A stretch of 64,000 nucleotides of DNA from Chloroflexi bacterium GWB2_49_20 (lineage in GTDB: Bacteria > Chloroflexota > Anaerolineae > Anaerolineales > Villigracilaceae). Within the stretch, counting starts at the first letter, position 1; each line of letters begins with the position of its first letter. Location of the stretch: assembly GCA_001796335.1 (NCBI GenBank), contig MGMF01000023.1:124001-188000 (forward strand), read 5' to 3'. The translations under genes and the position numbers were made by a program. Below, one piece after another: positions 4,478 to 32,100 of this stretch. The notes below the pieces were generated by a model. That model had not been told where the DNA came from. It saw nothing but the letters and a program-made list of their open reading frames with translations, and did no database searches.

Positions 4478-4535
4478 TTGATTTCCATGTTAAACTATGC
4501 ATAAGTTTATATTCCAATTTATCAAGGAGCATATT

Positions 4536-15982: not shown

Positions 15983-16687
15983 CTACGCGGCACCCAGGTA
16001 GTGCTGGATGGTTGCCTTGTCATTGGTCAGGTCTTTCATTTTTCCTTCTTTCACCGAACGGCCTTCTTCGATGATGACATAATATTCAGCCAATTGGCTG
16101 GCAACCAGAAAATTCTGCTCGACCAACACCACGGTCGAATAAGCCGAGAGCTGCTGGATAGCCTTCATAAGCTGTTCAATCAAAACCGGAGCCAGACCTT
16201 CGCTAGGTTCATCGATCAAAAGCAGGCAATTATCCGCAACAAGAGCTCGAGCGATCGCCAGCATCTGCTGTTGGCCGCCGGAGAGGTTGATGCCGGAAAG
16301 ATTGATAAGGCGTTTTAAATCGGGAAAAAGGGTAAAGATGAATCCTTTTTTGCCAGCATAGTCACCTTTTTTACGTTCGGCGATCTTTAGGTTTTCTTCC
16401 ACGCTCAAATCGCGAAAGATGGAACGATTTTCAGGAACGAAGCCGATCCCCAGGGATGCGATGTTAAAGGAAAGCATTCCTTGAATTTCGTTTCCTTCAA
16501 ACATGATCTTTCCTTGGCGTGGTGGGGTTAATCCCAAAATGGATTTTAGTGTGGTGGTTTTACCAGCACCGTTGCGTCCCAGTAATGCAGTAATACTTCC
16601 TCTTGGCACACGAACAGACACGCCCTGCAGGATATGATACTGCCCGATAAAGGTATGGATATCTTGTACGTCGAGGATATAGTCCAT
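15983..16687 (-). CDS. livF: ABC transporter ATP-binding protein LivF
   Basis: Cytoplasmic ATPase of the Liv-type importer, 234 residues. Walker A is GRNGAGKTT, the Q-loop region is GFVPENRSIF, the ABC signature is NLSGGQQQML, Walker B is LLLIDEPSEGLAP and the switch His is replaced by Gln in VLVEQN, as usual in LivF proteins. It lies between livG and livH in the operon. Confidence 0.94.
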   Translation of the reverse strand: MDYILDVQDIHTFIGQYHILQGVSVRVPRGSITALLGRNGAGKTTTLKSILGLTPPRQGKIMFEGNEIQGMLSFNIASLGIGFVPENRSIFRDLSVEENLKIAERKKGDYAGKKGFIFTLFPDLKRLINLSGINLSGGQQQMLAIARALVADNCLLLIDEPSEGLAPVLIEQLMKAIQQLSAYSTVVLVEQNFLVASQLAEYYVIIEEGRSVKEGKMKDLTNDKATIQHYLGAA

Positions 16688-16731: not shown

Positions 16732-17502
16732 TCAAAGATTCAAATGATACAGGCCGCCGAGGTAGGCAGTTTGCACGTCTTTGTTTGCCGCAATTTGAGC
16801 AGGCGTGCCTTCGGCCAGCACAGCTCCCTGATGCATAACGGTAATCTGGTCGGAAACGCTCATGACCACATTCATGTTGTGTTCAACCAACATGACAGTT
16901 TTATCACCCGCCTTCTGGATCTCCTGGATCAGGGCAATCAATTCTGGAACCTGTTCAGAGGCCATCCCGGCAGTAGGTTCGTCCAGCAAAAGTACTTCCG
17001 GATCAGGAGCCAAGATCATGCCCAACTCCAGCTTACGTTGATCGCCGTGTGGAAGCATGCGAGCAAAAACGTTGGCACGTTCCTGCAGACCAACCCGCTT
17101 GAGTACCACCCAGGTACGCTCTTCGTATTGTTTGAAAGCCGAAGCTGACCGCCAAAACTTAAAATTATCTGCCCCCAGCGCCTGGCTTGCCAGGCGGACG
17201 TTTTCAAAGACGGTTAAATTGGGGAAGATGTTGGAAATTTGGAAAGAGCGTCCAACCCCAAAGTGGATGGTACGATAGACAGGCTGGTGAGTGATGTCAC
17301 GTCCCTTATAAATAACCTTCCCACTGGTAGGCTCGATATTACCACTTAGCAAATTGAAGAAGGTAGTCTTGCCTGCTCCATTGGGGCCAATGATGGCATG
17401 AAAAGTATTCTTGCGGACTTTGATGTTGACATTATCCACAGCCACCAATCCGCCAAACTCCTTGCACAGGTTAATGGTCTCGAAAATGATCTCAGAATCC
17501 AT
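16732..17502 (-). CDS. livG: ABC transporter ATP-binding protein LivG
   Basis: Second ATPase of the Liv-type importer. Walker A is GPNGAGKTT, Walker B is VLLLDEPTAGM, the switch is VMLVEHNMN, and the LivG-specific GVGRSFQISNIFPNLTVFEN is present. The usual LSGGQ signature is replaced by LPHGDQRKLELG, a variant seen in LivG proteins. A TTG start four codons upstream is possible, but ATG 17502 with AGGTG upstream is preferred, giving 256 residues. Confidence 0.93.
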   Translation of the reverse strand: MDSEIIFETINLCKEFGGLVAVDNVNIKVRKNTFHAIIGPNGAGKTTFFNLLSGNIEPTSGKVIYKGRDITHQPVYRTIHFGVGRSFQISNIFPNLTVFENVRLASQALGADNFKFWRSASAFKQYEERTWVVLKRVGLQERANVFARMLPHGDQRKLELGMILAPDPEVLLLDEPTAGMASEQVPELIALIQEIQKAGDKTVMLVEHNMNVVMSVSDQITVMHQGAVLAEGTPAQIAANKDVQTAYLGGLYHLNL

Positions 17503-17527
17503 GGCACCTTTCAATTAATTGACCGCC

Positions 17528-17646: not shown

Positions 17647-19029
17647 TTATTGCCCGGATAAGGAACCGTAAGGCAGGCTGCCGCAACGAGCTTTCAAGCT
17701 CTCAGGCAGCAGGCATGGTGGTTCTGGGCGGGTTGTCTCAACATATTCGTAGAAGTTGGCATCCGGGTCAGTCAGGCTGACCAACTTGAGGATGTACATA
17801 TCCTGGATGGCGACATGATCTTCGGAACGAATGTTGACGGTGCCCTTCGGGCCTTCGAAACTCATGCCTTCGAATGCTGCTATCAGCGCTTCCCCACTGG
17901 CGTCACCACTGGTGGACTTTAGCCCTTCAACCAGCATAATAGCTGCGTTCATGCCATCAGCACCGAACAGGTCGGGCATTGTGCCATAGCGAGCCTTTTG
18001 CTCGGTCTTTAAGAAATCATTGACCACATTGTTCGGAGCTGACCAGTGATACAGAATACCACTGGTGCTACCAAGCGCATTGCCATACCAGATGGGCATA
18101 AGGACATTGTCAATAAAGGTTGCACCCAAGGCCATCGTTTCAGTGACGCCCAGGTCGGTTGCAGCCTGCATCAAAGGCACAAAGCCACCGCCAGCCCAGG
18201 TCACGATATAGGCTTCCGCACCGGAGTTAAGTACCTGCTCCATGTAGGGTGTGAAGTCAGTGGTGTCGAGGGGGGCAAAGATATCATCGACCACAAAAGT
18301 GCCGCCATCCAGCGTGCAGGAATCACGGAAAGCTGCAGCAGATCCCTGTCCAAAGGCATAGTCTGGAGCGATCTGGACGAAAGTGCTGTATTGTTTGGTC
18401 AAGTAGGCACATTCATTAATGGCATCCTGGTAGTTGTTACGGCTGGTGCGGAATGTGTACTCGTTAAAGTTGACGCCAGTGATGTCATTGGCGGCAGCCG
18501 GGGCAACGATCAAGGGGATCTTGCTTTCAGCAGCAATTCCCTGCAGGGTTGCTGTAGCACCAGAAGAGACGGTACCAACCAGAATATTCACGCCTTCAAC
18601 ATCGATCAATTCGCGGGCAATAGTTGCAGTGGTATCAGGAGTGCTGGCATCATCCCGCACAAAGACCTGGATTTCACAATCATCCAACATGAAATCGTTT
18701 TCCTGGGTGACAGAGATATCGAACTTGTCTCCAGCTGAACCGGCGGCACCGGTCGCATATTCCATACCCAGCATGAACGAGGGCAGGATGTGGGCACCGT
18801 AAATAGCCAGCGCACCAGTGACGTCTGTGATCAAACCGATTTTGATCGGCTCAGCACAAGTCAGGCGGGTAATGGGGGCTTCGGTTGGCGCCATGGTTGG
18901 GGCTTCGGTCGGCAGAGCCGGGGCTTCGGTCGGAGCCATGGTTGGGGCTTCGGTAGCGGCGGGACCGCAAGCTGCCAGCAATAAAGTCATGGCGACCATA
19001 ATAAAGGCAATGGTTTTAAACATTTTCAT
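17647..19029 (-). CDS. livK: Liv-type ABC transporter substrate-binding lipoprotein
   Basis: Extracytoplasmic binding protein (periplasmic-binding type I fold), 460 residues. A lipoprotein signal peptide ends in LLLAAC (Cys21). It is followed by a flexible linker of TEAP/TMAP repeats (about residues 26-55) and the ligand-binding domain beginning IKIGLITDVTGALAIYGAH. The start has GGAGGA upstream. The first 30 codons of the mature region are built of near-identical DNA repeats. Ligand specificity cannot be read, but the gene lies next to acyl-CoA and hydrolase genes, not amino-acid genes. Confidence 0.9.
   Translation of the reverse strand: MKMFKTIAFIMVAMTLLLAACGPAATEAPTMAPTEAPALPTEAPTMAPTEAPITRLTCAEPIKIGLITDVTGALAIYGAHILPSFMLGMEYATGAAGSAGDKFDISVTQENDFMLDDCEIQVFVRDDASTPDTTATIARELIDVEGVNILVGTVSSGATATLQGIAAESKIPLIVAPAAANDITGVNFNEYTFRTSRNNYQDAINECAYLTKQYSTFVQIAPDYAFGQGSAAAFRDSCTLDGGTFVVDDIFAPLDTTDFTPYMEQVLNSGAEAYIVTWAGGGFVPLMQAATDLGVTETMALGATFIDNVLMPIWYGNALGSTSGILYHWSAPNNVVNDFLKTEQKARYGTMPDLFGADGMNAAIMLVEGLKSTSGDASGEALIAAFEGMSFEGPKGTVNIRSEDHVAIQDMYILKLVSLTDPDANFYEYVETTRPEPPCLLPESLKARCGSLPYGSLSGQ
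18874..18956 (-). repeat. Tandem repeat encoding the TEAPTMAP linker of the binding lipoprotein
   Basis: Imperfect copies of GCTTCGGTCGGAGCCATGGT (plus-strand reading) encode the repeated TEAPTMAP linker. Such coding repeats can vary in copy number between strains. It is part of livK, not a separate element. Confidence 0.7.
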
Positions 19030-19105: not shown

Positions 19106-19909
19106 CTATTTAATGAAATCGATGACAGCCTGTGAGGCTGCTTCCGGTACTTCGATCGGAAAGAAATGTCCTGCATCCGGTAATATCGTGATTCTGGCGT
19201 TTGGTATCTTTGCAGCCAGAAGATCTGCATTCGCCGGGGGAACCACCTTATCATTTTCCCCGAACAGGATCAGTGTCGGGGCTTCCACTTCAGGCAACCG
19301 GTTCTCAAAGGCAGCTTCTTCGGCTATCAGCCCAAGTCCGATCACCATCTGTGATTGGTAACCAGCCAGGTCCATGGGATTTTTTATTCGCCAATCGACC
19401 CACTCCTGCGCCATTTCCGGGTGGGATTCTGCCCAACCCGGGGCTGTACTGACCGCCAAACCATTTTTAAAGCGGGTCAGTGGATCACTGGTGGTGTCCG
19501 AAAGCACAGCCCAGGCTTCTGCCGTGATCGGTACATGTCTTGGTCCGCCAAAGTTTGTGGAACAGAGGATCAACTTGACCACCTTATCAGGAAAGTCAAG
19601 CGCCATGGCCTGGGCAATATATCCACCCATCGAGTGACCCATGATAACAGCTTTTTCAACACCGAGTACATCCATGAGACCGGCTGTGTCGGCAGCCAGC
19701 ATCTGGGCGGTATAAAAGCCAGCCGGTTTGTCGGTCTGTCCGACACCGCGATTGTCAAAAGTGATAACCTGGAAATGTTTGGCCAGATATGGCACCATCT
19801 TGTGCCATTGCCAGAGCGGATAACCCAGACCTGAAATAAGCACCAGGGCTTCACCGCTTCCAGTGATTTCGTAATAGATGTCGATATCGTTCACTTTGGT
19901 CATTGGCAT
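19106..19909 (-). CDS. Alpha/beta hydrolase
   Basis: The 267-residue alpha/beta-hydrolase fold protein has a complete triad: Ser in GHSMGG (about residue 94), Asp in FGENDKVV and His in DAGHFFPIEVPE. The oxyanion-hole region is SGLGYPLWQW and DNRGVGQTDKP is typical. No signal peptide is present. The start has AAGGT upstream; an ATG two codons later is possible. It lies between livK and an acyl-CoA ligase in the catabolic block, and the closest role type is ester, lactone or thioester hydrolysis. Confidence 0.85.
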   Translation of the reverse strand: MPMTKVNDIDIYYEITGSGEALVLISGLGYPLWQWHKMVPYLAKHFQVITFDNRGVGQTDKPAGFYTAQMLAADTAGLMDVLGVEKAVIMGHSMGGYIAQAMALDFPDKVVKLILCSTNFGGPRHVPITAEAWAVLSDTTSDPLTRFKNGLAVSTAPGWAESHPEMAQEWVDWRIKNPMDLAGYQSQMVIGLGLIAEEAAFENRLPEVEAPTLILFGENDKVVPPANADLLAAKIPNARITILPDAGHFFPIEVPEAASQAVIDFIK

Positions 19910-19996
19910 CGTTTACCTTTTCTACCTTTCAATACGAGCTTTTGCACCTTCATAATGTTTCATTTGCTGAAAATCGCTCGTTCGTAATAACTCTGG

Positions 19997-21535
19997 TCAT
20001 AGATCAACCGGCATCATCCATTTCTTACGCAATTCGGTCTTGATCACTTTTCCATACGGTGAGTATGGTAACTCGGCTACAAACTCGACTCGCTTGGGAA
20101 TTTTGAAACGCGCCAATCTTCCCGTACAATGAGAAAGCAATTCTTCTGAGCTGGTTGATTTTCCCGATTTGAGAGCAATAATCATCAAACCGACTTCCCC
20201 CCATTTCTCGTCTGGTTGCCCAATTAGGGCTGCGTCGGCGACGGCGTCATGTTCGCGGAAAACAGCTTCCACTTCGGCAGCATAAACATTTTCGCCACCA
20301 CTGATGATCATATCCTTATAACGTCCGACGATGTAGAAATAACCTTCGGCGTCCTGGCGAGCCATATCCCCGGTGTGAAACCACCCATCCACCAGAGATT
20401 GTGCGGTGGCTTCATCATTTCGCCAGTAACCAGCGCATACGATTGGGCCGGATATGATCAATTCACCGGTCTCGCCCGGTGGAACATCGCAACCGTCGCT
20501 ATCAACCAGGCGTATTTGGCTGTGGAAGATCGGTTTTCCCACTGATCCCGCCTTGCGCAGGGCATCTTCATCAGTCATGGAGAAGCAGTTAACACCGGCT
20601 TCAGTGAGACCATACCCCTGGCGCATTGCCACACCCTTGGAACGGCTCCAGGCTTTGATCAATGAAGGCGGGCAGGGAGCACCTCCGCTGATAAAAAAAT
20701 GGACATGGCTGAAATTGGCATCCTGAAAGATCGGGCTGTTCATCCAGACCTGGAACAAGGTGGGTACACCCAGGATAACCGTGCATTTTTCTTGAACGAT
20801 GATCTTGAGTGATTCATCCTGATCAAAGTTGCGGGCCAGCACAATCCGCCCCCCCACATAAAACAATGGTACAAGGAAGACGAACAATCCGCCAGAATGG
20901 AACATGGGCGTCAGGATGGGTGAGATATCCTTCTCACTCAGACCCCAGGAGACAACTGTATTGATCGCATTCCACAGGACCTGGCGATGTGTAAGGATGG
21001 CTCCTTTGGGTTTCCCTGTTGTTCCGGAAGTATACAGGATGCAATATCCGTCGCCGGGTTCCAGAGATGGGTGCGCTGGTTCAAGATCAGCAGCCTGCTC
21101 CAGCAATAATTCATATGATTCTGCTTCGGGGATGTTCGCATTTTCAAGCGAAAGAAGATGTTTTATTTGGATCTCAGCCCGCATTTCATTCAAAACAGGC
21201 ACATATTCCGGTCCGCAGATCAAAACTTTGGGTTGAAGGTCTTTCACAATGAAAGTCAGCTCATGCGCGGTCAGACGCCAGTTAAGGGGTGCAAAAATGG
21301 CGCCGATCTTCCCCAGACCAAAAAGCAGATCTACAAATGCCAGGCAGTTTTGAGCCAATATTGAGACACGGTCGCCTTTCTGAACATTGAAATTTTCATG
21401 CAGAAAGTTGGCTGACCGGTTGGCGCGTTGATTGAGTTCGGCATACGTGTAGCGCTTACTTGTATGCAAATCATACAAAGCTTCCCGGTCGGGTGTCAGT
21501 TCTGCGCGTTTTCTCAGCAAGTCGGCTGCATGCAT
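19997..21535 (-). CDS. Acyl-CoA synthetase (AMP-forming), first copy
   Basis: ANL-superfamily ligase that activates a carboxylic acid with ATP and CoA. Its 512 residues contain the P-loop motif YTSGTTGKPKGAI, the A5 motif QGYGLTEAG, the A7/A8 region GWFHTGDMARQDAEGYFYIV followed by GRYKDMIISGGENVY, and the catalytic C-terminal Lys in PYSPYGKVIKTELR. Substrate chain type cannot be read. A second ligase at 25347-26876 is a clear paralogue, suggesting two acids are activated in the same pathway. Confidence 0.92.
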   Translation of the reverse strand: MHAADLLRKRAELTPDREALYDLHTSKRYTYAELNQRANRSANFLHENFNVQKGDRVSILAQNCLAFVDLLFGLGKIGAIFAPLNWRLTAHELTFIVKDLQPKVLICGPEYVPVLNEMRAEIQIKHLLSLENANIPEAESYELLLEQAADLEPAHPSLEPGDGYCILYTSGTTGKPKGAILTHRQVLWNAINTVVSWGLSEKDISPILTPMFHSGGLFVFLVPLFYVGGRIVLARNFDQDESLKIIVQEKCTVILGVPTLFQVWMNSPIFQDANFSHVHFFISGGAPCPPSLIKAWSRSKGVAMRQGYGLTEAGVNCFSMTDEDALRKAGSVGKPIFHSQIRLVDSDGCDVPPGETGELIISGPIVCAGYWRNDEATAQSLVDGWFHTGDMARQDAEGYFYIVGRYKDMIISGGENVYAAEVEAVFREHDAVADAALIGQPDEKWGEVGLMIIALKSGKSTSSEELLSHCTGRLARFKIPKRVEFVAELPYSPYGKVIKTELRKKWMMPVDL

Positions 21536-21584
21536 AAATAACTCATATATCTGTTTATTCTAACAATACCCGGTTTCTCCCGGG

Positions 21585-22391
21585 TTACAAAATTTTGCTC
21601 TGTTTTGCCAGGAATCCGAGAACAACCGAATTGAACTCTTCCGGTCGTTCCCAGCAGGAACCATGTCCTGCGCCTCTCAAGATATGATATTCGGCATGGG
21701 GAATCCCTTTTTTAAGGATCTCCGCATAGCGTGGTCCTTTGAGCAGATCCATCTCGCCAACAATGATACAGGTCGGTACATTGATCTCTTCCAGGCGTTG
21801 GGTAAAATCAACATCCAGGAAAGCTTCGCACAGGCGAATAATCGCTGGGAAGTCCAACAAGGCATATCGCTTTTTTGCATCTTCCAGCAAGGGGATATTC
21901 TGGGCAATGAATTCAGTTGAGAAATTCCAGGGGACAGTGGAATTAAAGAACACCAGCGGGTTTCCTGTTCGCAAAGCATCCATCCAACTCTGGATGATCA
22001 GGCGCAATTCAGGTCCAACTTCACTAACTGTGTCCATAAGGATCAGACTGAGAGTTTTATGTGGATATTTCAGCGCAAAAGCCTGGGCCACTTCTCCGCC
22101 ATAAGAAATTCCAGCGATATTAGCCTTTTCAATATTGAGAGATTCAAGAAGCACAGCCAGGTCATCGGCATGAATTTCCATCGAGTATGGACCCTCTGGG
22201 TGGTCAGCTTGTCCCTGACCACGGCAATCATATTGCAACAGGCGGTATTGAGTAGAAAATGCTCTGGTCTGGAACACCCAGCTTGAAGCGGCATTCATAA
22301 TGATCCCATTATTGAGCACCAGCACAGGGAGCTCTTCCGGTCCCCGCAGCTCGTAATACAGGTTCACTCCATGGGCTAAAATCTCAGGCAT
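21585..22391 (-). CDS. Alpha/beta hydrolase, 3-oxoadipate enol-lactonase-like
   Basis: Alpha/beta-hydrolase of 268 residues. The nucleophile is Ser in GISYGGEVAQAFAL, the acid is likely Asp in GEMDLLKGPR and the base His in GAGHGSCWERPEEFN. The N-terminal NNGIIMNAASSWVFQ and QYDCRGQGQADHPEGPYSM resemble lactonase and C-C hydrolase relatives. It starts 12 bp after the DUF35 gene, so the genes are translated from one transcript. Confidence 0.83.
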   Translation of the reverse strand: MPEILAHGVNLYYELRGPEELPVLVLNNGIIMNAASSWVFQTRAFSTQYRLLQYDCRGQGQADHPEGPYSMEIHADDLAVLLESLNIEKANIAGISYGGEVAQAFALKYPHKTLSLILMDTVSEVGPELRLIIQSWMDALRTGNPLVFFNSTVPWNFSTEFIAQNIPLLEDAKKRYALLDFPAIIRLCEAFLDVDFTQRLEEINVPTCIIVGEMDLLKGPRYAEILKKGIPHAEYHILRGAGHGSCWERPEEFNSVVLGFLAKQSKIL

Positions 22392-22403
22392 ACCTGTTGC
22401 TCT

Positions 22404-22838
22404 CTATTCCTGTCTGGTCTTGAATGCCAAGTAACTTTTCTTTTTATCACCCTCACCAGCTTCAATAAATCCAACCTCCAGGCGGGTACCAATCCCAATG
22501 GAATCTGGTTGAGTGGCGTCAACACCCAGGATACGGGCACTGATCTTGACTCCTTCGTCCAGTTCGACGATGCCGCTGACATAGGGTTTATCACGTCCAT
22601 AGCCCTGCTCGATCATAAAAGTTGGAGCAATGTAGACCACTGTAAATCCAGCCAGTTTGCCTTTGCCACTGGTCTCTGTCCACACCAGATTTACACCATG
22701 ACACTTGGAGCAAATTGCACGCGGTGGAAGACTGAGCTTTCCACAGTCAGCGCAGCGCGCAGCCATCAATTTTCCTTCTGCCAGGTATTGGTTAAAGGAT
22801 GCCGCTGTGAAAGGGCGGATGGTTGTCGTTTCGATCAT
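22404..22838 (-). CDS. DUF35 OB-fold protein with rubredoxin-like zinc ribbon
   Basis: A 144-residue protein with an N-terminal helix, a zinc ribbon (CADCGKLSLPPRAICSKC, two CxxC knuckles at about residues 29-32 and 43-46) and an OB-fold (GKLAGFTVVYIAP, GIVELDEGVKISARI). DUF35 proteins pair with thiolase-like enzymes: as scaffold in the archaeal thiolase/HMG-CoA synthase complex, as PhlB in diacetylphloroglucinol synthesis and as ChsH2-type partner of steroid aldolases. It is next to a thiolase gene here, which supports a complex. Confidence 0.88.
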   Translation of the reverse strand: MIETTTIRPFTAASFNQYLAEGKLMAARCADCGKLSLPPRAICSKCHGVNLVWTETSGKGKLAGFTVVYIAPTFMIEQGYGRDKPYVSGIVELDEGVKISARILGVDATQPDSIGIGTRLEVGFIEAGEGDKKKSYLAFKTRQE

Positions 22839-22950
22839 TGTTTCCTCTTTCTTTCCCCTTAAACGGGGTCAAAATATACGCAGTGCGTTTTAGAATCGCC
22901 GCGTCGCTTCCCAATTTTCCTGGTCAGCTTCCATTCGATCTGGCTGAGGT

Positions 22951-24219
22951 CTATTCGCGCCGCTCGAAGATATGCACCACACAGGTCGAACCGGTTGCAC
23001 CGACATTGTGCGTCATTGCAAGGGGAACATCACCAGGAACCTGGCGTTCACCTGCTTCATTTCTCATCTGCTTCCAGAGTTCAAATACCTGGGCAACTCC
23101 CGAAGCGCCTACCGGGTGTCCTTTAGATTTTAGCCCACCACTGGTATTGATCGGTTTGCCACCCAGGCGGGCGGTCATACCATCTTCAGCCGCTTTAAAC
23201 CCTTCACCGGGAGCAAAGAAACCGATATCCTCGCTGGCAATTACTTCCGCGATGGTGAAGCAGTCATGCACTTCAGCAATGCGAACATCACTGGCAGATA
23301 TACCGGCCATTCCATAAGCCTGGGATGAAGCCAGTTTGGCAGCGGGTAAACTGGTCAGATCCAGCCGGTTGTGCAAAGCAGTATCGGATGCCTGGGCTGA
23401 ACCAATAATATGGATCGGTATATCCGTAAATTCCCTGGCACGTTCCTCGGCCACCAGCAGCAACGCTGAAGCTCCGTCGGTGATCGGGGAACAATCGAAC
23501 AAGCGCAGCGGCCAGGCAACTATAGGATTAGCATAACCATCATGAAGAAAATCCCAGATCGAGGTCCAATTTGGAGCTGGCTTCCCTTTTTTTATGGCAG
23601 AGGCAATTCGTCCTTCCATCCACTTCTGAATGGTCGTACCAAACTGGGCATTCGGATTTAAGGCGCCATTATCATGATTCTTGATGGCTACGTTCATCAG
23701 GTGTTCAGGCTTCATTCCAAATTTCGCCATGTAGGCGGTGGCCATGGCAGCGTAAAACCCGGGAAAAGTAAATCCGGCCGAGATCTCGAATGGGACGTCA
23801 GCAGCGGTGGCAAGTGTATCAGTGACATCCGCGGTTGGAAGGTCGGTCATTTTTTCTGCCCCTCCCACCAAAACAACGTCATACAATCCCGAGGCAATAG
23901 CCATCACCCCTTGACGCAGAGCTGTGGCTCCGCTCGCACAGGCATTTTCCACCCGGGTAGCCGGGATGGGTGTCAGGCCGACGGCATCCAGCAGTAACGG
24001 GGCGGTATGTCCCTGGTGCTCAAACAAGTCGCTTGAAAAATTTCCCAGGTAGAAAGACTCTATGACAGCCGGGTCGAGTCCCTTGTCTACAGAGCCGGTC
24101 ATATCCTTGAAGGCTTCCACGAACAGGTCACGGCTGTTCTTCTCGGGGAACGCCCCAAACTTGGACATGCCTACACCTATAATGGAAACGCCGCGCAGGA
24201 GTGGACGGGATTTGGGCAT
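22951..24219 (-). CDS. Thiolase (SCP-x / archaeal acetyl-CoA acetyltransferase type)
   Basis: Thiolase-fold enzyme of 422 residues. The nucleophile is Cys in ENACASGATALRQ, and the His is in SKGHPVGASGVAQ. The C-terminal motif is HNVGATGSTCVV, where classical thiolases have CxGxG. This is the arrangement of SCP-x and archaeal DUF35-linked thiolases. An upstream GTG would add 11 residues translated from a palindrome, so ATG 24219 with AAGGAG upstream is preferred. Reaction: condensation or thiolytic or aldol-type cleavage of an acyl-CoA. Confidence 0.88.
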   Translation of the reverse strand: MPKSRPLLRGVSIIGVGMSKFGAFPEKNSRDLFVEAFKDMTGSVDKGLDPAVIESFYLGNFSSDLFEHQGHTAPLLLDAVGLTPIPATRVENACASGATALRQGVMAIASGLYDVVLVGGAEKMTDLPTADVTDTLATAADVPFEISAGFTFPGFYAAMATAYMAKFGMKPEHLMNVAIKNHDNGALNPNAQFGTTIQKWMEGRIASAIKKGKPAPNWTSIWDFLHDGYANPIVAWPLRLFDCSPITDGASALLLVAEERAREFTDIPIHIIGSAQASDTALHNRLDLTSLPAAKLASSQAYGMAGISASDVRIAEVHDCFTIAEVIASEDIGFFAPGEGFKAAEDGMTARLGGKPINTSGGLKSKGHPVGASGVAQVFELWKQMRNEAGERQVPGDVPLAMTHNVGATGSTCVVHIFERRE

Positions 24220-24240
24220 GAGTGAAGCTCCTTTTCGATA

Positions 24241-24278
24241 GTAAGAGGGCACGGCGAAACAAAACGCCGTGCCCTTAC
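24241..24278. repeat. GC-rich palindrome between hydrolase and thiolase genes
   Basis: GTAAGAGGGCACGGCG and CGCCGTGCCCTTAC form a stem of about 14 bp with a two-base bulge and an AT-rich loop. It sits between two co-directional genes. It lacks a T-run and resembles dispersed palindromic repeats of bacterial genomes more than a terminator. Confidence 0.55.
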
Positions 24279-24281
24279 AAG

Positions 24282-25343
24282 TTATTTCAAGACTTTATTG
24301 AAGGCCGCCATGAATTCATGCGGCTTTTCGACGTAGGGTGAATGTGCCGTATCGGCAATGACAACTTCTTCAAAATCGCCGCCTTTGACCTTGTACTGTT
24401 CCAAAATATGACGAGTCTGGCTTACCATTGGCTGAGGCGGATAAACATCCTTGCCCGGCCAACCGGGGACGAAGCCCAACTGACCAAGAGTGCCCATGTC
24501 GAAGAAGGATGTGTCAGAGACAATCTGGTCAAATTCGCCGTGGATCCAGAGCATGAATGGCTTGGGCTTGGCGGCAATGAATTTTTCCACGCTGTCGCCA
24601 ACGTACTTTGGCGATAGCGCATTGATCGGTCCAAACTTCCCAGGTGCCACATTAGGCCAATTCTCTGATGGAACGAGATCACCAGAATATTTATCCGCGC
24701 CGACCTTTTCGGTCAGTAGCGAGGAAAGCAGGTCTTCTTCGCGAGCAGGCACAAAAGGCGGTTTCCAATAGAAGGAGTTCATCACCACACGCGGCGAAGC
24801 TTGCGGGTTATTGGCGCTTCGGTCGCCAGCTGCCATCAACTTGGGGAAGTCGGGATTGACGATGCCGCCGCCGGAACCTGCAAAATCGTCATAACAGGGC
24901 TGACCATCGATACCCTTACAACCGCCAAATCCATACGGCGAGCCGGGATCCACCACAGTCCCGCACAAGACGCGAGTCGGTGCGGCCGTAACGAGACCAA
25001 ACACAATTGTCCCGCCCATCGAATGTCCGATTACATGGGTCTTTTCGATTTTGAGCGCATCCAACAGGGCTAGCAGGTCACCTACCCAATCCCCCATCCC
25101 GCGCGTGGCGTCGATAACCATATCTTCAGTGTCACCGTAGCCGCGCAAATCAGGTGCGATACCACGGAAGCCATCCGGAAGCATGAGCATGATCTCCTCC
25201 CAGAATGTTGCGGACGATGCGTTGCCGTGGACAAAGAGCACCGGGGTGCCATTATCCGCTCCGCTGAACAGGACATGGGTTTTGATGCGGGCTGTGTCGA
25301 CCATTTTGGACGTAATACCGGGCAAAGTAGGAACTGTGGACAT
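24282..25343 (-). CDS. Alpha/beta hydrolase, long form
   Basis: A 353-residue alpha/beta-hydrolase. The nucleophile is Ser in HVIGHSMGGTIVFG, a candidate acid is Asp in IHGEFDQIVSD and the base His is in ADTAHSPYVEKPHEFM. A long cap region of about 100 residues with Cys and Gly (GFGGCKGIDGQPCYDD) separates strand 6 from the core. AAAGGAG precedes the start. Its stop is 62 bp before the thiolase ATG and its start is 4 bp from the second acyl-CoA ligase, so translation is tightly linked. Confidence 0.83.
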   Translation of the reverse strand: MSTVPTLPGITSKMVDTARIKTHVLFSGADNGTPVLFVHGNASSATFWEEIMLMLPDGFRGIAPDLRGYGDTEDMVIDATRGMGDWVGDLLALLDALKIEKTHVIGHSMGGTIVFGLVTAAPTRVLCGTVVDPGSPYGFGGCKGIDGQPCYDDFAGSGGGIVNPDFPKLMAAGDRSANNPQASPRVVMNSFYWKPPFVPAREEDLLSSLLTEKVGADKYSGDLVPSENWPNVAPGKFGPINALSPKYVGDSVEKFIAAKPKPFMLWIHGEFDQIVSDTSFFDMGTLGQLGFVPGWPGKDVYPPQPMVSQTRHILEQYKVKGGDFEEVVIADTAHSPYVEKPHEFMAAFNKVLK

Positions 25344-25346
25344 TTT

Positions 25347-26876
25347 TTACTCCTTTGTGAATTGATCGCGCAATTCGCGCTTGAGAATCTTACCCGCTGC
25401 TGAAATAGGTAGGGCATCCATGAAAGTGACCGACTTCGGCACTTTAAATTTCGCCAACCGCTCTGTCATGAATTTCAACAACTCTTCTTCAGCAGCAGAA
25501 GCGTCCGGCTTCAGCACTACGCAAGCTTTGCCCACCTCCCCCCATCCAGGATCTGGCAGACCGATGACAGCACACATATGCACGGACGGATGCTGGTAAA
25601 GCACCTTCTCAATTTCAGCAGGGAATACGTTCTCACCACCGCTGATGAACATGTCTTTCTTGCGGTCGACAATATAAAAATAGCCTTCCGCATCATATCG
25701 TGCCACATCACTGGTGTGAAAATACCCCTGCTGATCAACAACCGTAGTGCTTGCATCAGGATTATTAAAATAACCGGAACAATACGATGGCCCTTTCAGG
25801 ACCAACTCGCCGGCTTCATCCGGGCCCAGAAAATTGTTCTCATCATCAACAACCCTGGCATCCACGAAGAAATTAGGACGACCAATCGAACCAGCCTTAC
25901 GGATGGCATCTTCTGGAGCCAGGGCAAAGATACCGGGACCAAATTCGGTCATACCAAAGCCCTGTTTGAAGCGGATGCCTTTTTCAGAAGTGTATTTTTC
26001 CACCAGCGGCACAGGCAAGGGAGCCCCGCCCGAAGTGCAGAAACGGAGCGAAGTGAGATCTGCTCGCTCCCAGTTTGGAGCCTGGGTTAACATCTGGTAC
26101 ATGGTTGGAACCCCAGCAAAAACGGTCACCTTTTCGCGTTCGATCAGATCCAACACCTGGACCGGATCGAACTTGTTTATAAAGATGGTCGTTCCACCAA
26201 AGATGACCTGCGGAAGGGTATACACGAAAAGCCCCCCCGTGTGGAACATCGGAAAGACGTTGAGATAAATATCGTTATGAGTGATATCGTGAATGACGGT
26301 ATTGAGCGTATTCCAGGCGATCATGCGATGCGAAACTTCAGCCGCTTTGGGCAGGCCGGTTGTCCCGCCGGTGAAGATCAAAGCGGCAGTATGCTCCGCT
26401 TCCAGCTTCTCACAAGTCACAGGGGTGCCGGGCGCAGCTTGTAGCGTGGTTTCAAAGGGAAAGCTCCCCGGGATCCCGTTCCCATCTAGGTGCAGGCTCG
26501 TCAACGGGTAGTGGGCCATAAGCTGGGTCACATTCTCCTTGAAATCATCCGAAAAAACCAGGATACTTGGTTTGACGTTCTGGAAGATCTCAATCAGCTC
26601 CTGCCAGTGCAGCCGCCAGTTAAGGGCGGTGTGGATCGCACCTAGTTTCGAGCAGGCAAAGAACACATCCAGGTGTTCATAGCCATCCCTGGCCAGGATC
26701 GCCACCCGATCGCCAAAAGTCACTCCCCGGATTTGAAGCCAGTTTGCCAGTTGGTTGGAGCGTTTGTTGGCATCCCTAAAGGTCAGTCGCCATTCGGGAG
26801 ATTTACCCGCATCAATAAAAGCCATTTTTTCCGGGCTGTAGAGTTCGCGTCGAGAAAGATAATCGCCAATATACAT
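25347..26876 (-). CDS. Acyl-CoA synthetase (AMP-forming), second copy
   Basis: ANL-family ligase of 509 residues with FTGGTTGLPKAAE (P-loop), QGFGMTEFGPG (A5), GYFHTSDVARYDAEGYFYIV and DRKKDMFISGGENVF (A7/A8), and the C-terminal Lys in PISAAGKILKREL. It is a diverged paralogue of the ligase at 19997-21535 with the same length. AAGGACC lies before the start. It probably feeds a CoA ester to the thiolase or KAS III-like enzymes nearby. Confidence 0.92.
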   Translation of the reverse strand: MYIGDYLSRRELYSPEKMAFIDAGKSPEWRLTFRDANKRSNQLANWLQIRGVTFGDRVAILARDGYEHLDVFFACSKLGAIHTALNWRLHWQELIEIFQNVKPSILVFSDDFKENVTQLMAHYPLTSLHLDGNGIPGSFPFETTLQAAPGTPVTCEKLEAEHTAALIFTGGTTGLPKAAEVSHRMIAWNTLNTVIHDITHNDIYLNVFPMFHTGGLFVYTLPQVIFGGTTIFINKFDPVQVLDLIEREKVTVFAGVPTMYQMLTQAPNWERADLTSLRFCTSGGAPLPVPLVEKYTSEKGIRFKQGFGMTEFGPGIFALAPEDAIRKAGSIGRPNFFVDARVVDDENNFLGPDEAGELVLKGPSYCSGYFNNPDASTTVVDQQGYFHTSDVARYDAEGYFYIVDRKKDMFISGGENVFPAEIEKVLYQHPSVHMCAVIGLPDPGWGEVGKACVVLKPDASAAEEELLKFMTERLAKFKVPKSVTFMDALPISAAGKILKRELRDQFTKE

Positions 26877-26953
26877 AATCTGGTCCTTCGAAAAAATGGG
26901 GATGGATTTATTGATTAAGCATCCATACTACCCATCCAATCTGTGTACAAAAA

Positions 26954-27952
26954 TCACTTTGCTGTCCACTTCCACACAGAGGACGCCATCGAAATTCCAC
27001 CGCCACTGGCACAGAACAGGATCGTTTCACCGGCTTTGGGACCTTTTCCCTGGCTGATGGCATCATCCAGTGCCATAACGACACAGGGTGAACCAGTGTA
27101 ACCCCATTTATCCATGATCCAGTGGGTTTTCTCAATAGATTGGTTCAGCAGGGTCATCATAAACTCAATCGTTCGCAGATTTAATTGGGTGAAAAAATAT
27201 TTGTCAACATCATCAAAGGTCAAGCCACCTTTATCAAGCGCACCCTGCATGAGTTTCGGCCAGTATTCGGTATTAAAGGTCTTGGGAAACTTGCGTACGA
27301 ATTCAACCTTGGGTGGGCCAAATGTCGCCAGATTTTCTGGTGTGCAAGGACGATTGGCACCGCCGGTATATATCCCCAGCGCATCGTGGAACGCACCCAC
27401 TGCCAGGAAGTTGCTGCCGACAAAGCCCGGTGTATCCCCTACCCCAAGCACAACGGCACCGGCTCCATCCGCAAACAGGTTTGCCGTTTTCTTGTCATTG
27501 AAGTCCAGAAAGCGGCTCATGCCATATCCACCTGCAACGAGGATGTTATTATATGAAGGTTCTGTCATCAGGTAGCGGGCACCCTGGTCCAGGGCAGTGA
27601 CCCAACCTGCACAGGCCGAATTTACGTCATAACAACCGGCTGAAGAGCCGAGTTTGTATTGGACAACGATTGAAGTGGCCGGTGAAAGGTAGTCTGGCGT
27701 GTCGGTGGAGACAATGATCATATCCAGTTCATTTGCATTGATCCCGGCTCGATTCAACGCCTTCCTGGAGGCTTCCACGATCAGATCAGAAGTGGTCTGT
27801 TCAGGCGACATCCAACGACGTTCACGAATGCCAACATTGGCAAGCAGCCACTCATTAGTGGATTCGCCCATTAGGGCATCCACTTCAGCGTTGCTTACAA
27901 CCCGCTCTGGTACATAGCTACCGGTCGCAAGGATTTGTGGGTGACGGACCAT
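26954..27952 (-). CDS. KAS III-like (FabH/HMG-CoA synthase-type) condensing enzyme with altered triad
   Basis: Thiolase-fold enzyme related to FabH, 332 residues from ATG 27952. That start lies one base after the SDR stop, and a longer upstream reading frame overlaps the SDR gene and is rejected. The nucleophilic Cys is in VNSACAGWVTAL. At the position of the FabH HQAN motif it reads FFTQLN, and the FabH GNTSAA motif is GYTGSPC. The His and Asn of the Cys-His-Asn triad thus appear replaced. The C-terminal FCASGGGISMASS is typical. A role in acyl transfer without decarboxylation is inferred. It may pair with the thiolase and DUF35 protein. Confidence 0.85.
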   Translation of the reverse strand: MVRHPQILATGSYVPERVVSNAEVDALMGESTNEWLLANVGIRERRWMSPEQTTSDLIVEASRKALNRAGINANELDMIIVSTDTPDYLSPATSIVVQYKLGSSAGCYDVNSACAGWVTALDQGARYLMTEPSYNNILVAGGYGMSRFLDFNDKKTANLFADGAGAVVLGVGDTPGFVGSNFLAVGAFHDALGIYTGGANRPCTPENLATFGPPKVEFVRKFPKTFNTEYWPKLMQGALDKGGLTFDDVDKYFFTQLNLRTIEFMMTLLNQSIEKTHWIMDKWGYTGSPCVVMALDDAISQGKGPKAGETILFCASGGGISMASSVWKWTAK

Positions 27953-27953
27953 A

Positions 27954-28718
27954 CTAGGTTCCCACGACAATGCCGCCATCCACACGTAGCGTTTCGCCCG
28001 TGATAAAGGAGGCTTCGTCAGAAGCAAGGAACAGGTATGCGTTGGCGATATCCCGGGGTTCTCCCAAGCGACCCAATGGAGTGCGTGATTTCATGCCATC
28101 CAGCACCTTCCCGGGCATGGCTGTCACCATCTCTGTGGCGGTAAAACCGGGAGCCACAGCGTTCACGCGAATCCCAAATTTACCCAGCTCACGTGACCAT
28201 ACCTTGGTCATCCCAATTACACCCGATTTGGTGGCGACATAATTGGTCTGACCAAAATTGCCATCCAGGCCAACAACGGAGGTGGCGTTCAGGATCACCC
28301 CCCCACCCTGTTTGGCCATGACTGGAGCAACGGCTTGTGTACAGTTAAAGACACCCTTCAAGTTGACAGATATTACCAGGTCAAAATCAGCTTCGGCCAT
28401 TTGCCCCGCCAGTTGACCTTCTTTGAATTTGATCAACTGGCTGTCGCGCAAAATGCCGGCATTATTGACAAGCACATCAATACGAGTATATTTGGCAACA
28501 ACATCATCGATCCACTTTTGGACTTCCTGGCGATTGGCCACGTTGACTTTATAAAAAGCCGCATCTACGCCTAATTCCCGGACGGTCGCATGCCCAACAT
28601 CTTCGTTGACATCACAGATGATGACCTTTGCCCCTTCCTGGGAAAAGCGCAAGGCAGTGGCTTTGCCAATCCCTGCTGCACCACCTGTGATGAGAACAAC
28701 TTTATCTTTCATGCGCAT
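27954..28718 (-). CDS. Short-chain dehydrogenase/reductase (FabG-like)
   Basis: NAD(P)-dependent oxidoreductase of 254 residues. It has the dinucleotide motif ITGGAAGIGKA, NNAGI, the catalytic Ser in NATSVVG with Tyr and Lys in NYVATKSG, and the C-terminal FITGETLRVDGG of 3-oxoacyl or 3-hydroxyacyl reductases. Asp in IICDVN after strand 2 suggests NAD rather than NADP. AGGAG lies seven bases before ATG. It is the first gene of the catabolic block and may oxidise a 3-hydroxyacyl intermediate. Confidence 0.9.
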   Translation of the reverse strand: MRMKDKVVLITGGAAGIGKATALRFSQEGAKVIICDVNEDVGHATVRELGVDAAFYKVNVANRQEVQKWIDDVVAKYTRIDVLVNNAGILRDSQLIKFKEGQLAGQMAEADFDLVISVNLKGVFNCTQAVAPVMAKQGGGVILNATSVVGLDGNFGQTNYVATKSGVIGMTKVWSRELGKFGIRVNAVAPGFTATEMVTAMPGKVLDGMKSRTPLGRLGEPRDIANAYLFLASDEASFITGETLRVDGGIVVGT

Positions 28719-28898: not shown

Positions 28899-29111
28899 CT
28901 ACGGATTACCCTGGCCAGGTTCAGCCTCGAGCGGCACATAACGCCGGATGAAGTCTACGGCATCCTCCCAAGAGTTAAAACTCAACTCTTCATCACTCTG
29001 GATGTGGCGGATGGCACCGTGGTAGGTCGACTGCACATCACCATTGGATGATGAGTCCACTACAAAGCGGATGACAAATGAAGAAATAAAAGGGGGAATG
29101 CGAGGGTCCAT
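28899..29111 (-). CDS. Small conserved-looking protein
   Basis: A 70-residue soluble protein: FVIRFVVDSSSNG, then YHGAIRHIQSDEELSFNSWE and DAVDFIRRYVPLE. The charge pattern and beta-then-helix layout look like a real domain. I recall similar small proteins accompanying large MalT-like regulators in Chloroflexota, though this is memory rather than a search result. It lies 76 bp downstream of the regulator on the same strand. Function unknown. Confidence 0.6.
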   Translation of the reverse strand: MDPRIPPFISSFVIRFVVDSSSNGDVQSTYHGAIRHIQSDEELSFNSWEDAVDFIRRYVPLEAEPGQGNP

Positions 29112-29187: not shown

Positions 29188-32100
29188 TCACAGGGTTAAA
29201 TTTTTATATAAAATCTTTGTTTCCGGTGCAGGGCTGACATTCAATTCCTCGAACAGAGTCTGCACGCAGCGTTGGTAAGTACGACCGACCTGTCCGCGAT
29301 CGCCTAGTTTTTCATAAGCAAACATCAGGTGACGATAAGCACGTTCCCAACAGTTATCTTGTGTCAGGATGCGCTGACATAGATCGATGACTTCGGTAAA
29401 ACGTTTTTTGTTGATATACATCTCTGCCAACCGGTCCGCGCTTTCGAGAAAAAGCGCAGCCAGATGTTCGCGTTCTTCTGCCACCCAGGTTTCGTAAAGG
29501 GTTTCAGGAAGATACTCACCCTTGTACAACGAAACTGCACGCTGGAGCAGATTAAGGTCCGGGTTCGATGCAAGGTGGACGGCCTGGATAAACTGATCCG
29601 CGTCCAACCAAATGTCTGCGTCTTGGCGTAGGCAATAAGTGGTACCTTCGCGCAAAATATAGGCTGATTCACTACCCGGATCACGCTCCGGTTCCAGAAC
29701 CTGGTAAAGTGTATTGAGCACGATCTTAAAATTTCGCTGGGCGGTCGGGGGATCGGCTTCAGGCCACAGGTACTCATGAATTTGGTCGCGATCGAGCGGT
29801 ATGCGGCGGTAGGTGATCAATAACTGAAATAACTGTCGAGATTTTTCACGCTGCCAGCCGTTGGTCGGGATTGGCTTATCTCCACGCCAAACCTGGAAAC
29901 CATTCAGGGTCTGGACACGCAGACAATAACCAGGGTGATATTCCACGCCCTTTAAACCAAGTTCTTCGAGTACCTGGGTTGCATATAAACTGTTCCAGCC
30001 TCGCTGGCGGGCAACAATTAGTAAAGGAACAAAAATGCGCGCATCGAACGCCCCAAGCAAGGACGGACGCTTTAGCAGGAAACCGTAGCCTCTGGTCTCG
30101 CAGGAGGATAACACCTCAGGAAGCACTCGTTCCAGGCGTGAGATTTGTTTTTGTTTCAAGAAACCCAGACTCAGCCATAAGCGTGCCGCGGTTGCCCCAA
30201 ACAAATCGCTGCATTCCTGGAAGCCGAACATTGCCCGGTTGAGCCACTCTTCGGAGGCCTCGTAACGGGCGGCTTGTATCAGGCTGGCACCCATTGTCAG
30301 TCGTGTAAGCGAGGCAATCCACTCATCCCCAGCCTGGGTAGCAATCTCGATCGCCTCCTGTGCATAGGATTGAGCTGCGGTCAGGTTTCCCTGATAACCG
30401 TAAGCCCGGCATAGCCCCCAATCTGCTTCAACTAGCAGGCGCGGTACCACCAGTGTGCGGCTGATTTCAACGCTCTTTTCAAATTGGTCACGTGCTTGTG
30501 CGAAATAATCAGTATCAGGTTGCCCTGCATCAGAAAGCATCAAGGCATGCCCCTGACGCATATAACCGACGGCGGTTACGAACGGAGATTTGAGTTCATC
30601 ACCGCGCCGGGTGCCTTCAAGAGCAGTTTGGTAAGCTTCACCCTCCATCCCCATAAATGAGTAGATCAGCGACAAGATCAGCAGGGTTTCGCGGTGGGCA
30701 CGCGGCATTTGAACTGGTTCGCGCTTTTCTGTTTCGGCGCGCTCTTCCAACCCCTGGCGTGCTTCATCGAGACGACCGGTGCGCAGCAATACGCGGAAGA
30801 GTAACTGGTCATTGCTCGGTCCTTCCAGCCGCAAATCTTCTGCGCGTTGTCGCAGACGTTCTGCCTCTTCCACGCGCCCAGCATTTAATTTATTTTCAGC
30901 CAGCAATTCGAATAGACGTACTTGAGACTCACGATCCTTGAAACCATCACTCAGCCGAATAGCTTCTTCGAGCAATTGCTCAGCTTTACTTGGATCAACT
31001 GTATCGAGATAAACGCGCGCTTGGCCGCGCAGGGCGCGCGCCACGCCATCCTGCTGTCCACGCAAGCGCCAAGCTATTTTGGCCTGCTCGTACCAGCCTA
31101 ATGCTTCATCAAAACAGCTGTGTAGGCGAGCCAACTCACCGAGGGTAAAAGTCAACGGGGGATGCTGGTGGAGCGTCTCAGGTGGCAGATTATCCAAATA
31201 TGTCGCCAAAGTATCCAGACGACCAGCAGAAAGTAAGCTGGAAGCGAAAATGTCTAATAAATCTGCAACTTCGTCCCAACATTGGGCTTCAAGCAAGTGG
31301 AAAATGGCATTTTCTGCGTCATTGTTAAGCCGAAAATAATCGGCAGCCAACCGGTTCCAGGTATTTTTCTGCTCTGGCGAGGCCTGCTGGCGCAAGAAAT
31401 TATGAAAGATATGATGGTAGCGCAAGACGTCCCCTGCAGTCTCGACTACGAACAGGTCTTGTCGACGTAAATATGCCAGCATGGAAGCTGAATCTGCGAC
31501 AACGTGACCAGCAGCTTTTCGAAGCGCATCGCAGGCTTCTGGTTTCAATTCGCGCAGCGTAGATGTGACCAACAGGAAATCTCTTATATCCAATGGTTGA
31601 TGCTCAAAGACTTCATGAGTCAGCAAATCAAAAAGAACATCCAGCGAATTGGTTTGCCATCGTAGAGGAAATTCAATCGTCGAGGGGGATTGGCTGCGGA
31701 TACTCTGCCAGAATAACTGCAAAGCAATCGCCCACCCTTCGGTATAAGTGCTAAGCGCATCTACTTCATCGCTGCTCAACTCAAAGCCGTATTGTATGGC
31801 AAACAAAGTTTCAATTTCAGTAGTGGTAAAGGTCAATAGGGATTGGTCCAACAAAAGTACTTCTCCCTGAGAACGCCAACGGGAGAGGTTGGGTAAATCG
31901 ATAACCGGGCGACCGGAGAGCAACACGTGCAATTGTACAGGTGCCAACCTGATCAACCGGTCAATAATATGGGGCACACCTCCGGTTTCGGTAATAATAT
32001 GCGCATCGTCAATCACCAGCATGATTGCCGAATCGAGACTTGCGCTCAATGTGTTAATTACCTGATCGATCACATTGCGCCAGGGCAAAGGACCTTGCGA

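Follow-up and report, generated by a model that had tools for sequence, protein, structure and literature searches.

A divergent FabH-like KAS III without the His and Asn of FabH, next to an acyl-CoA ligase in an importer-linked gene cluster of a Chloroflexota genome

Enzymes of the KAS III type have been described with the triads Cys-His-Asn, Ser-His-Asp (or Ser-His-His) and Cys-His-Asp, and FabH, ZhuH, DpsC, ChlB3 and CerJ all have a catalytic histidine, according to the available portions of PMC9573744 and PMC12664062. A thiolase together with a DUF35 protein is known from the archaeal complex of thiolase, DUF35 and 3-hydroxy-3-methylglutaryl-CoA (HMG-CoA) synthase (6esq), from the Friedel-Crafts acylase PhlACB (5m3k), in which a KAS III-fold protein belongs to the same operon, and from the benzoylsuccinyl-CoA thiolase BbsAB (7pxp). 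Here we analyzed a gene cluster of about 15 kb on the minus strand of a 64,000-nucleotide stretch of Chloroflexi bacterium GWB2_49_20, called the window (contig C23 of genome G000, positions 124001-188000; the genome has 3.37 Mb and is 99.4% complete). The cluster holds a KAS III, two AMP-forming acyl-CoA ligases (ANL1 and ANL2), a thiolase, a DUF35 protein and a Liv-type importer. The first-pass annotation of this DNA had centered on thiolase, DUF35 and KAS III as a trio; that interpretation is half right, and the notable feature is not the trio but the conserved pairing of a KAS III, its active site rebuilt, with an enzyme that activates acids. The four proteins concerned are given below with their window coordinates, strand and basis.

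26954-27952 (-): KAS III of a divergent family with Cys114, Asp84, Thr255 and Tyr285 (Pfam; residue alignments; AlphaFold2 pLDDT 93.2; nearest folds FabH)
25347-26876 (-): ANL1, AMP-forming acyl-CoA ligase (Pfam; linked to the KAS III in 47/47 loci; A10 Lys in 67/75 rows, a gap in the other 8)
22951-24219 (-): thiolase, archaeal/SCP2 type (NF004720 447 bits, cut-off 420; nearest solved 6esq_A; Cys94, His318 and Cys320 in 30/30, His368 in 29/30)
22404-22838 (-): DUF35, zinc ribbon plus OB fold, thiolase partner (PF01796 and PF12172 over cut-off; each of the four zinc Cys in 23/25)

The active site was compared over 97 rows. These were 93 rows at 56-100% identity, namely 79 of the 80 sampled loci described below (the fragment L059 was left out) and 14 from a genome search including the window's own, with some genomes entering twice, and four rows of a group at 41-44%. 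In every row (93/93 and 4/4, window's own included) Cys114 is kept, the FabH His is replaced by Thr255 and the FabH Asn by Tyr285, whereas the FabH-type proteins of related genomes carry Cys, His and Asn in 12/12. A profile-to-4ryb alignment puts Cys, Thr and Tyr in the same columns. Asp84 is equally found in 97/97 rows, at a column which holds Ser in 12/12 FabH proteins. Among the 32 aligned members used for modelling, none departs from Cys114, Asp84 or Tyr285, and at least 90% keep Thr255. In a joint alignment Asp84 shares its column with the Glu of the genome's own HMG-CoA synthase, which lies 32 residues ahead of the Cys of that enzyme, and with the Glu of five PRK06840-type proteins; the available part of PMC6392133 names Cys114 and Glu82 as key residues of archaeal HMG-CoA synthase. 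Other residues conserved in the family and differing from FabH are His277, Trp278, Lys282, Trp283, Cys290, Tyr143 and Tyr195. The PRK06840-type KAS III-fold proteins all belong to the same kind of operon and have their Glu in the HMG-CoA synthase Glu column; they are the one at L083:1930-3006 (455.4 bits, cut-off 315) and those of L050, L053, L054 and L058, chosen by their common HTGEQD motif.

The AlphaFold2 model of the KAS III, built from the 32-member alignment, has a pTM of 0.92, and its nearest solved folds are FabH enzymes, 4ryb by Foldseek (template-modelling scores 0.87/0.90) and 4dfe_B by VIA-align (Z 45.5, root-mean-square deviation 1.9, 318 residues aligned). HMG-CoA synthase and OleA were not named among the 50 best Foldseek or VIA-align matches, which carries no weight against either. 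The protein scores below both curated FabH models (217.4 against a cut-off of 249 and 186.5 against 292.1 bits) and reaches 29.6 bits on the archaeal HMG-CoA synthase model TIGR00748 (cut-off 353.35). By scores and predicted fold it is classed as FabH-like and not as HMG-CoA-synthase-like. It has the fold, the active-site Cys and the overall length in common with 4ryb, 4dfe and E. coli FabH, and differs from them by Thr/Tyr in place of His/Asn, by Asp84 in place of Ser, by its ligase or CoA-transferase partner and by its FabH scores under the cut-offs. The acyltransferases ChlB3, CerJ and DpsC also have the KAS III fold with a changed triad, which in them is used for acyl transfer; the accessible portions of PMC9573744 and PMC12664062 place a His at the FabH Asn position and an Asp five residues on, and Tyr285 and Cys290 of the window protein seem to stand at these two positions, matched through those descriptions and not by alignment.

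Along the minus strand the genes run 5' to 3' as BTAD regulator, 70-aa gene, SDR, KAS III, ANL1, ABH1, thiolase, DUF35, ABH2, ANL2, ABH3, LivK, LivG, LivF, LivH and LivM, with SDR to ABH3 at 28718-19106 (-) followed by livK-G-F-H-M at 19029-13313 (-). The gaps from SDR to LivM are 1, 77, 3, 62, 112, 12, 49, 87, 76, 132, 44, 36 and 3 bp, with the starts as chosen in this analysis. Because these genes share a strand and are separated by 1-132 bp, SDR through LivM looks like one transcription unit of 14 genes. The remaining members of the cluster are as follows.

29188-32421 (-): BTAD-type transcriptional activator with TPR repeats, 1077 aa, probable regulator (Pfam BTAD PF03704 68.2 bits, cut-off 22.1; same-strand counterpart within 10 kb in 24/47 loci)
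28899-29111 (-): 70-aa protein (similar gene in 32/80 loci; no Pfam family over cut-off; single copy in the genome)
27954-28718 (-): SDR, FabG-like dehydrogenase/reductase (FabG model NF004198 280.8 bits, cut-off 296; Ser/Tyr/Lys in 59/59 relatives)
24282-25343 (-): ABH1, alpha/beta hydrolase (Pfam; Ser108 and Asp272 in 55/55, His334 in 54/55 with one gap)
21585-22391 (-): ABH2, alpha/beta hydrolase (Pfam; Ser/Asp/His in 23/23)
19997-21535 (-): ANL2, second AMP-forming acyl-CoA ligase (Pfam; A10 Lys in 36/36; nearest solved 8weu/8wev)
19106-19909 (-): ABH3, alpha/beta hydrolase (Pfam; Ser/Asp/His in 39/39)
17647-19029 (-): LivK-type substrate-binding protein (Peripla_BP_6 215.2 bits; nearest solved 3nnd/3n0x, then 4ey3/4eyg/4eyk)
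16732-17514 (-): LivG-type ATPase (ABC_tran and BCA_ABC_TP_C)
15983-16687 (-): LivF-type ATPase (ABC_tran)
14390-15946 (-): LivH-type permease (BPD_transp_2)
13313-14386 (-): LivM-type permease (BPD_transp_2)

By Pfam the component set of a Liv/HAAT importer is complete, with the binding protein, two ATPases and two BPD_transp_2 permeases. Among the 32 loci with a gene similar to the 70-aa one (out of 80), 27 also have the regulator.

For the survey of linkage we took the best 80 of 109 encoded KAS III relatives from named genomes, and the window proteins were mapped on them by tblastn with identity thresholds chosen in this analysis. By title, 70 of the 80 loci are Chloroflexota and 10 are not; the 47 used here are those of the 70 with at least 8 kb downstream, the other 23 being too short. 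A gene was counted when it shared the strand of the KAS III and lay no more than 10 kb from it; since no upstream flank was demanded, all counts except that of ANL1 are lower bounds, and an absent gene is one that is not linked. ANL1 is present in all 47 loci and is the next mapped gene to the KAS III in 45 of them. ABH1 follows with 32, SDR and ANL2 with 31 each, ABH3 with 30, LivK with 25, the regulator with 24, thiolase and DUF35 with 22 each and ABH2 with 15. Thiolase and DUF35 always co-occur, and neither is found alone in any of the 47 loci. Locus L012 has KAS III, ANL1, ABH1, SDR, ANL2, ABH3 and LivKGFH without thiolase and DUF35, and L062, L065, L066, L068, L070, L071, L072 and L074 have, beyond KAS III and ANL1, at most the SDR of the mapped genes. 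The pairs that hold are KAS III with ANL1 and thiolase with DUF35, and this two-module statement, which rests on counts, is much firmer than the mechanism proposed below.

To explain the pattern of thiolase linkage, the KAS III tree requires 7 or more changes; counting only those forced by its starred branches gives 4-5, in a quick tree with many open forks. Over 61 genomes, the own one included, a window-type thiolase (at least 64% identity) occurs in 14, and all of these are among the 18 with this KAS III. The KAS III genomes without it are G003, G014, G033 and G034, three of which have a thiolase at 41%; G024, the genome of locus L025, was scored without a linked thiolase and carries a window-type copy on a different contig from its KAS III. 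The hypergeometric values (1.4e-10 for thiolase and 4.4e-14 for ANL1) overstate the evidence because the genomes are kin. With the window-type thiolase confined to genomes having this KAS III, a functional tie between the two pairs is possible.

The first-pass annotation fares unevenly against these results. All the genes it named are present on the minus strand with small gaps, directly upstream of livKGFHM, and its gene list and coordinates are right; it had missed the 70-aa gene (29111-28899) and the BTAD regulator (32421-29188), and the thiolase start which it put at 24252 is likely 24219, judging from the ATG there. It had proposed searching other genomes for the same gene set, and much of the run does recur in other Anaerolineae, which makes the arrangement not a matter of chance; the loci closest to that of the window, among the best 80 of 109 relatives, come from records titled Anaerolineales, Anaerolineae or Chloroflexi. 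Its trio did not hold up as the conserved unit in this search, as the KAS III goes with ANL1 in 47/47 loci and with thiolase and DUF35 in 22/47. What stands of its uncharacterised acyl-CoA pathway with uptake is a conserved set of acyl-CoA genes with a Liv-type importer linked to it, for which no published description was found; what falls is thiolase, DUF35 and KAS III as its unit. In the titles and abstract openings listed from an open-access library we found no description of this operon, or of a KAS III without the His and Asn of FabH, and this is weak evidence as subscription papers were mostly outside the scope.

The partner of the KAS III gives the best evidence for its place in the pathway. 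Of the 61 genomes, exactly the 14 whose KAS III reaches at least 57% have an ANL1 of at least 55% identity (E no higher than 1e-150). In a distant KAS III branch at 41-46% identity (L120-L123 and L129-L132), ANL1 has no match in any of the eight stretches, some of which are short, and a family I CoA-transferase is found in 8/8 loci, adjoining the KAS III or within about 1.3 kb of it and with 61-100% identity to the copy of L121 (itself included). This L121 protein scores 211.6 bits on PF13336, 53.3 on PF02550 and 279.8 on TIGR03948 (under its cut-off of 674.8). The more remote L128, left out of the 8/8 count, has neither ANL1 nor CoA-transferase adjacent to its KAS III, and in 3/47 Chloroflexota loci a CoA-transferase occurs alongside ANL1. 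Because an unrelated enzyme with the same type of product replaces ANL1, the KAS III would act after acid activation and take an acyl-CoA. At L083:3795-6278, Pfam reads a CoA-transferase and a Liv-type binding domain in a single open frame, as a fusion.

The closest solved chain to the window thiolase is the archaeal acetoacetyl-CoA thiolase 6esq_A (287.8 bits), and the protein passes the PRK06064 model (NF004720). The likeness to the archaeal complex lies in the families of the thiolase (PRK06064/6esq type, with its Cys and His residues) and of DUF35 (C4 zinc ribbon plus OB fold) and in the acidic Asp84 at the Glu column of the synthase; the window KAS III differs in being no HMG-CoA synthase (Thr for His) and in not being constantly linked. 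The Cys/His/Glu synthase is instead at G000:C5, where a canonical set is clustered: HMG-CoA reductase (427.9 bits, cut-off 259.95), HMG-CoA synthase (531, cut-off 353.35), a PRK06064-like thiolase (358.3, under the cut-off of 420) and a DUF35 protein (75.3 bits, over cut-off). Since the genome has the archaeal-type set there, the window trio is not that set. From PhlACB the window differs in that its KAS III is FabH-like with an invariant Cys114, PhlA being HMG-CoA-synthase-like and without the active Cys in the available part of PMC6392133. From BbsAB it differs in scores, DUF35 having 34.6 bits on the BbsA model (cut-off 250) and the thiolase 161.5 on the BbsB model (cut-off 750). An archaeal-type or PhlACB trio as a conserved unit was rejected on the 22/47 linkage, the changes on the tree, the TIGR00748 score and the canonical set elsewhere. 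A steroid side-chain aldolase (Sal/Ltp2 with DUF35) was also set aside, the thiolase having HDCF and not YDCY/YDHF and retaining its Cys (motifs as given in the available part of PMC12329534), and for the lignin-ketone enzymes VceA/VceB and HpeE/HpeF nothing was found that connects them to a KAS III. In L054 (18787-19212) the DUF35 gene still follows the thiolase, with the zinc-ligand cysteines lost.

On the side of the substrate, the solved proteins nearest to LivK by sequence are 3nnd/3n0x and 4ey3/4eyg/4eyk, the last three of which we take to be aromatic-acid binders. For both ligases the top solved structures are 8weu/8wev, of which 8wev is named feruloyl-CoA synthetase, with fatty-acid and malonyl ligases in the next rows. 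The substrate may be an aromatic acid. A search of the genome for PF06050, aimed at class I benzoyl-CoA reductases alone, gave no match, which speaks against an anaerobic aromatic route. Additional genes in some relatives encode MaoC-type proteins, an enoyl-CoA hydratase and PRK06840-type proteins.

Of 400 Chloroflexota genomes, 15 have the KAS III at E 1e-65 or better, counting that of the window. Outside the phylum, the best 80 of 109 relatives include eight loci of Competibacter/Contendobacter type, one proteobacterial genome (L060) and one Myxococcales genome, and neither ANL1 nor the thiolase has a match in any of these 10 stretches. In the 12 other genomes with both proteins, the KAS III is 11-18 points more alike to that of the window genome than FabH is in 10, and less alike in G014 (57 vs 73) and G032 (46 vs 66). 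The KAS III locus does not follow FabH, and therefore both mobility and old paralogues are allowed, with no date given.

Taken as a whole, we give about an even chance to an inducible uptake and acyl-CoA operon in which the central steps would be the activation of an acid and an unusual reaction of the KAS III, thiolase and DUF35 forming an optional C-C module. The LivKGFHM importer would bring in a carboxylic acid or a precursor, and ANL1 (the CoA-transferase in the distant branch) would convert the acid to a CoA thioester. The adjacent KAS III would take up the acyl group of this product on Cys114. With Asp84 standing where HMG-CoA synthase has its Glu, and with Thr255/Tyr285 for the His/Asn of FabH, it might perform an acyl transfer or a non-decarboxylative Claisen-type step and not the malonyl-ACP condensation of FabH. 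The FabG-like SDR, joined by MaoC-type proteins in some relatives, may adjust the beta carbon; thiolase-DUF35 would form a separate, optional module for cleaving (or forming) C-C bonds; the alpha/beta hydrolases may release acids or open esters or lactones, and ANL2 may activate a second acid. Gene content and order, conservation, the KAS III-ANL1 pairing, the exchange of ligase for transferase, the residues and the predicted fold come from the sequence, and from them we infer all reactions, their direction, the induction and the substrate. A further proposal, tentative and somewhat short of even, is that the KAS III represents a class of the thiolase superfamily with a rebuilt Cys-Asp-Thr-Tyr site, without the His and Asn of FabH and perhaps without any catalytic histidine, which would work directly with a ligase or CoA-transferase, catalyze a reaction new for the fold and form the core of an uncharacterised assimilation pathway that is patchy in Chloroflexota and has relatives in genomes of Competibacter type and of Myxococcales.

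Several observations weigh against this proposal of uptake, activation and an unusual KAS III step. A histidine, His277, stands eight residues before Tyr285 in 92/93 and 4/4 rows, where FabH has mostly Ile, Val or Met, and it might take over a catalytic role; because it is conserved, we prefer for the predicted site the wording 'without FabH's His and Asn', which is weaker than 'histidine-free'. The proposed new class does not hinge on this choice of words. The match of Asp84 to the Glu column is a sequence alignment at low identity, and the remote relative L128 (40-41%) has Asn in place of Thr255. We found no close relative of this KAS III that has been characterised, for which reason its reaction is read from the lost residues. 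An acyl-CoA dehydrogenase is absent from the cluster, and the 6 matches in the genome are on other contigs. The direction is ambiguous as well, as SDR, MaoC and KAS III also fit chain building. The Competibacter-type loci L047, L051 and L075 have a similarly starting open frame after the KAS III, and the one of L075, which alone was scanned, gives 66.4 bits on PapA_C; this PapA/condensation-like frame hints at a lipid product in these genomes.

The last two points lead to a different account, CoA-based chain building, in which ANL1 would give a starter acyl-CoA, the KAS III would extend it and SDR and MaoC would work on the beta carbon towards a lipid or signal product. The FabG-like SDR and the FabH-like KAS III standing 1 bp apart and the PapA/condensation-like frames of L047, L051 and L075 are in its favour, but the FabH His and Asn are gone in 97/97 rows, the linked importer and three hydrolases suggest breakdown, and a carrier protein gene would not fit into any of the intervals from SDR to LivM, the widest being 132 bp; we regard this account as doubtful. 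A single complex of thiolase, DUF35 and KAS III, in the style of the archaeal thiolase/HMG-CoA synthase or of PhlACB, that acts on an aromatic or alicyclic acid after its import is improbable. Thiolase and DUF35 are of the right families, the window-type thiolase occurs only in genomes with this KAS III (14/14, among 61), Asp84 falls in the Glu column and the solved relatives of LivK include 4ey3/4eyg/4eyk, presumably binding aromatic acids; yet the KAS III is without linked thiolase-DUF35 in 25/47 loci, it is FabH-like with the canonical set elsewhere, and the genome has no match to the class I benzoyl-CoA reductase family.

In another account, ligase, hydratase, SDR, thiolase-DUF35 and hydrolase would shorten the side chain of a phenylpropenoid-type acid by beta-oxidation, with the KAS III as an accessory. 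This would agree with 8weu/8wev standing first for both ligases and with the MaoC and enoyl-CoA hydratase genes of some relatives, and for an unsaturated acid it would need no dehydrogenase. It is nevertheless hardly probable, given that KAS III-ANL1 is the sole constant part and the linked thiolase is dispensable, that no hydratase family match was found among the window operon proteins and that the genome gave no match to a class I ring reductase. The OleABCD beta-lactone set consists of a KAS III, a hydrolase, a ligase and an SDR. A set of this kind was only put aside: ANL1 and ANL2 match acyl-CoA ligase models and carry the A10 Lys, with no OleC sequence in the comparison.

A KAS III family that keeps the Cys, gains an invariant Asp and is without the FabH His and Asn gives a clean way to test which other reactions the fold supports, as its chemistry may differ from that of the known relatives. 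The ligase or CoA-transferase partner indicates the kind of substrate to offer it, and a function would thereby be given to a recurring operon of mostly uncultured Anaerolineae.

The first-pass annotation had also suggested transfer of the block from a GC contrast of 57% in one row against 38% in another. This argument fails because such rows are common, 9.5% of the 60-bp rows in the window having at least 57% GC and 10% at most 38%, and the contrast is ordinary row-to-row noise. The block as a whole has 50.9% GC against 47.6% for the window, which is above 94% of same-size stretches in the window. Elsewhere in the window, a multihaem cytochrome c-like protein is encoded at 33684-34958 (-), its matches to hydrazine dehydrogenase and decahaem models being all under cut-off. 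A Rieske-type oxygenase-like protein at 5981-6958 (+), with all matches under cut-off, comes after a gene at 4497-5915 (+) for an enzyme of the tryptophanase/tyrosine phenol-lyase family (NF009709 700 bits, cut-off 285).

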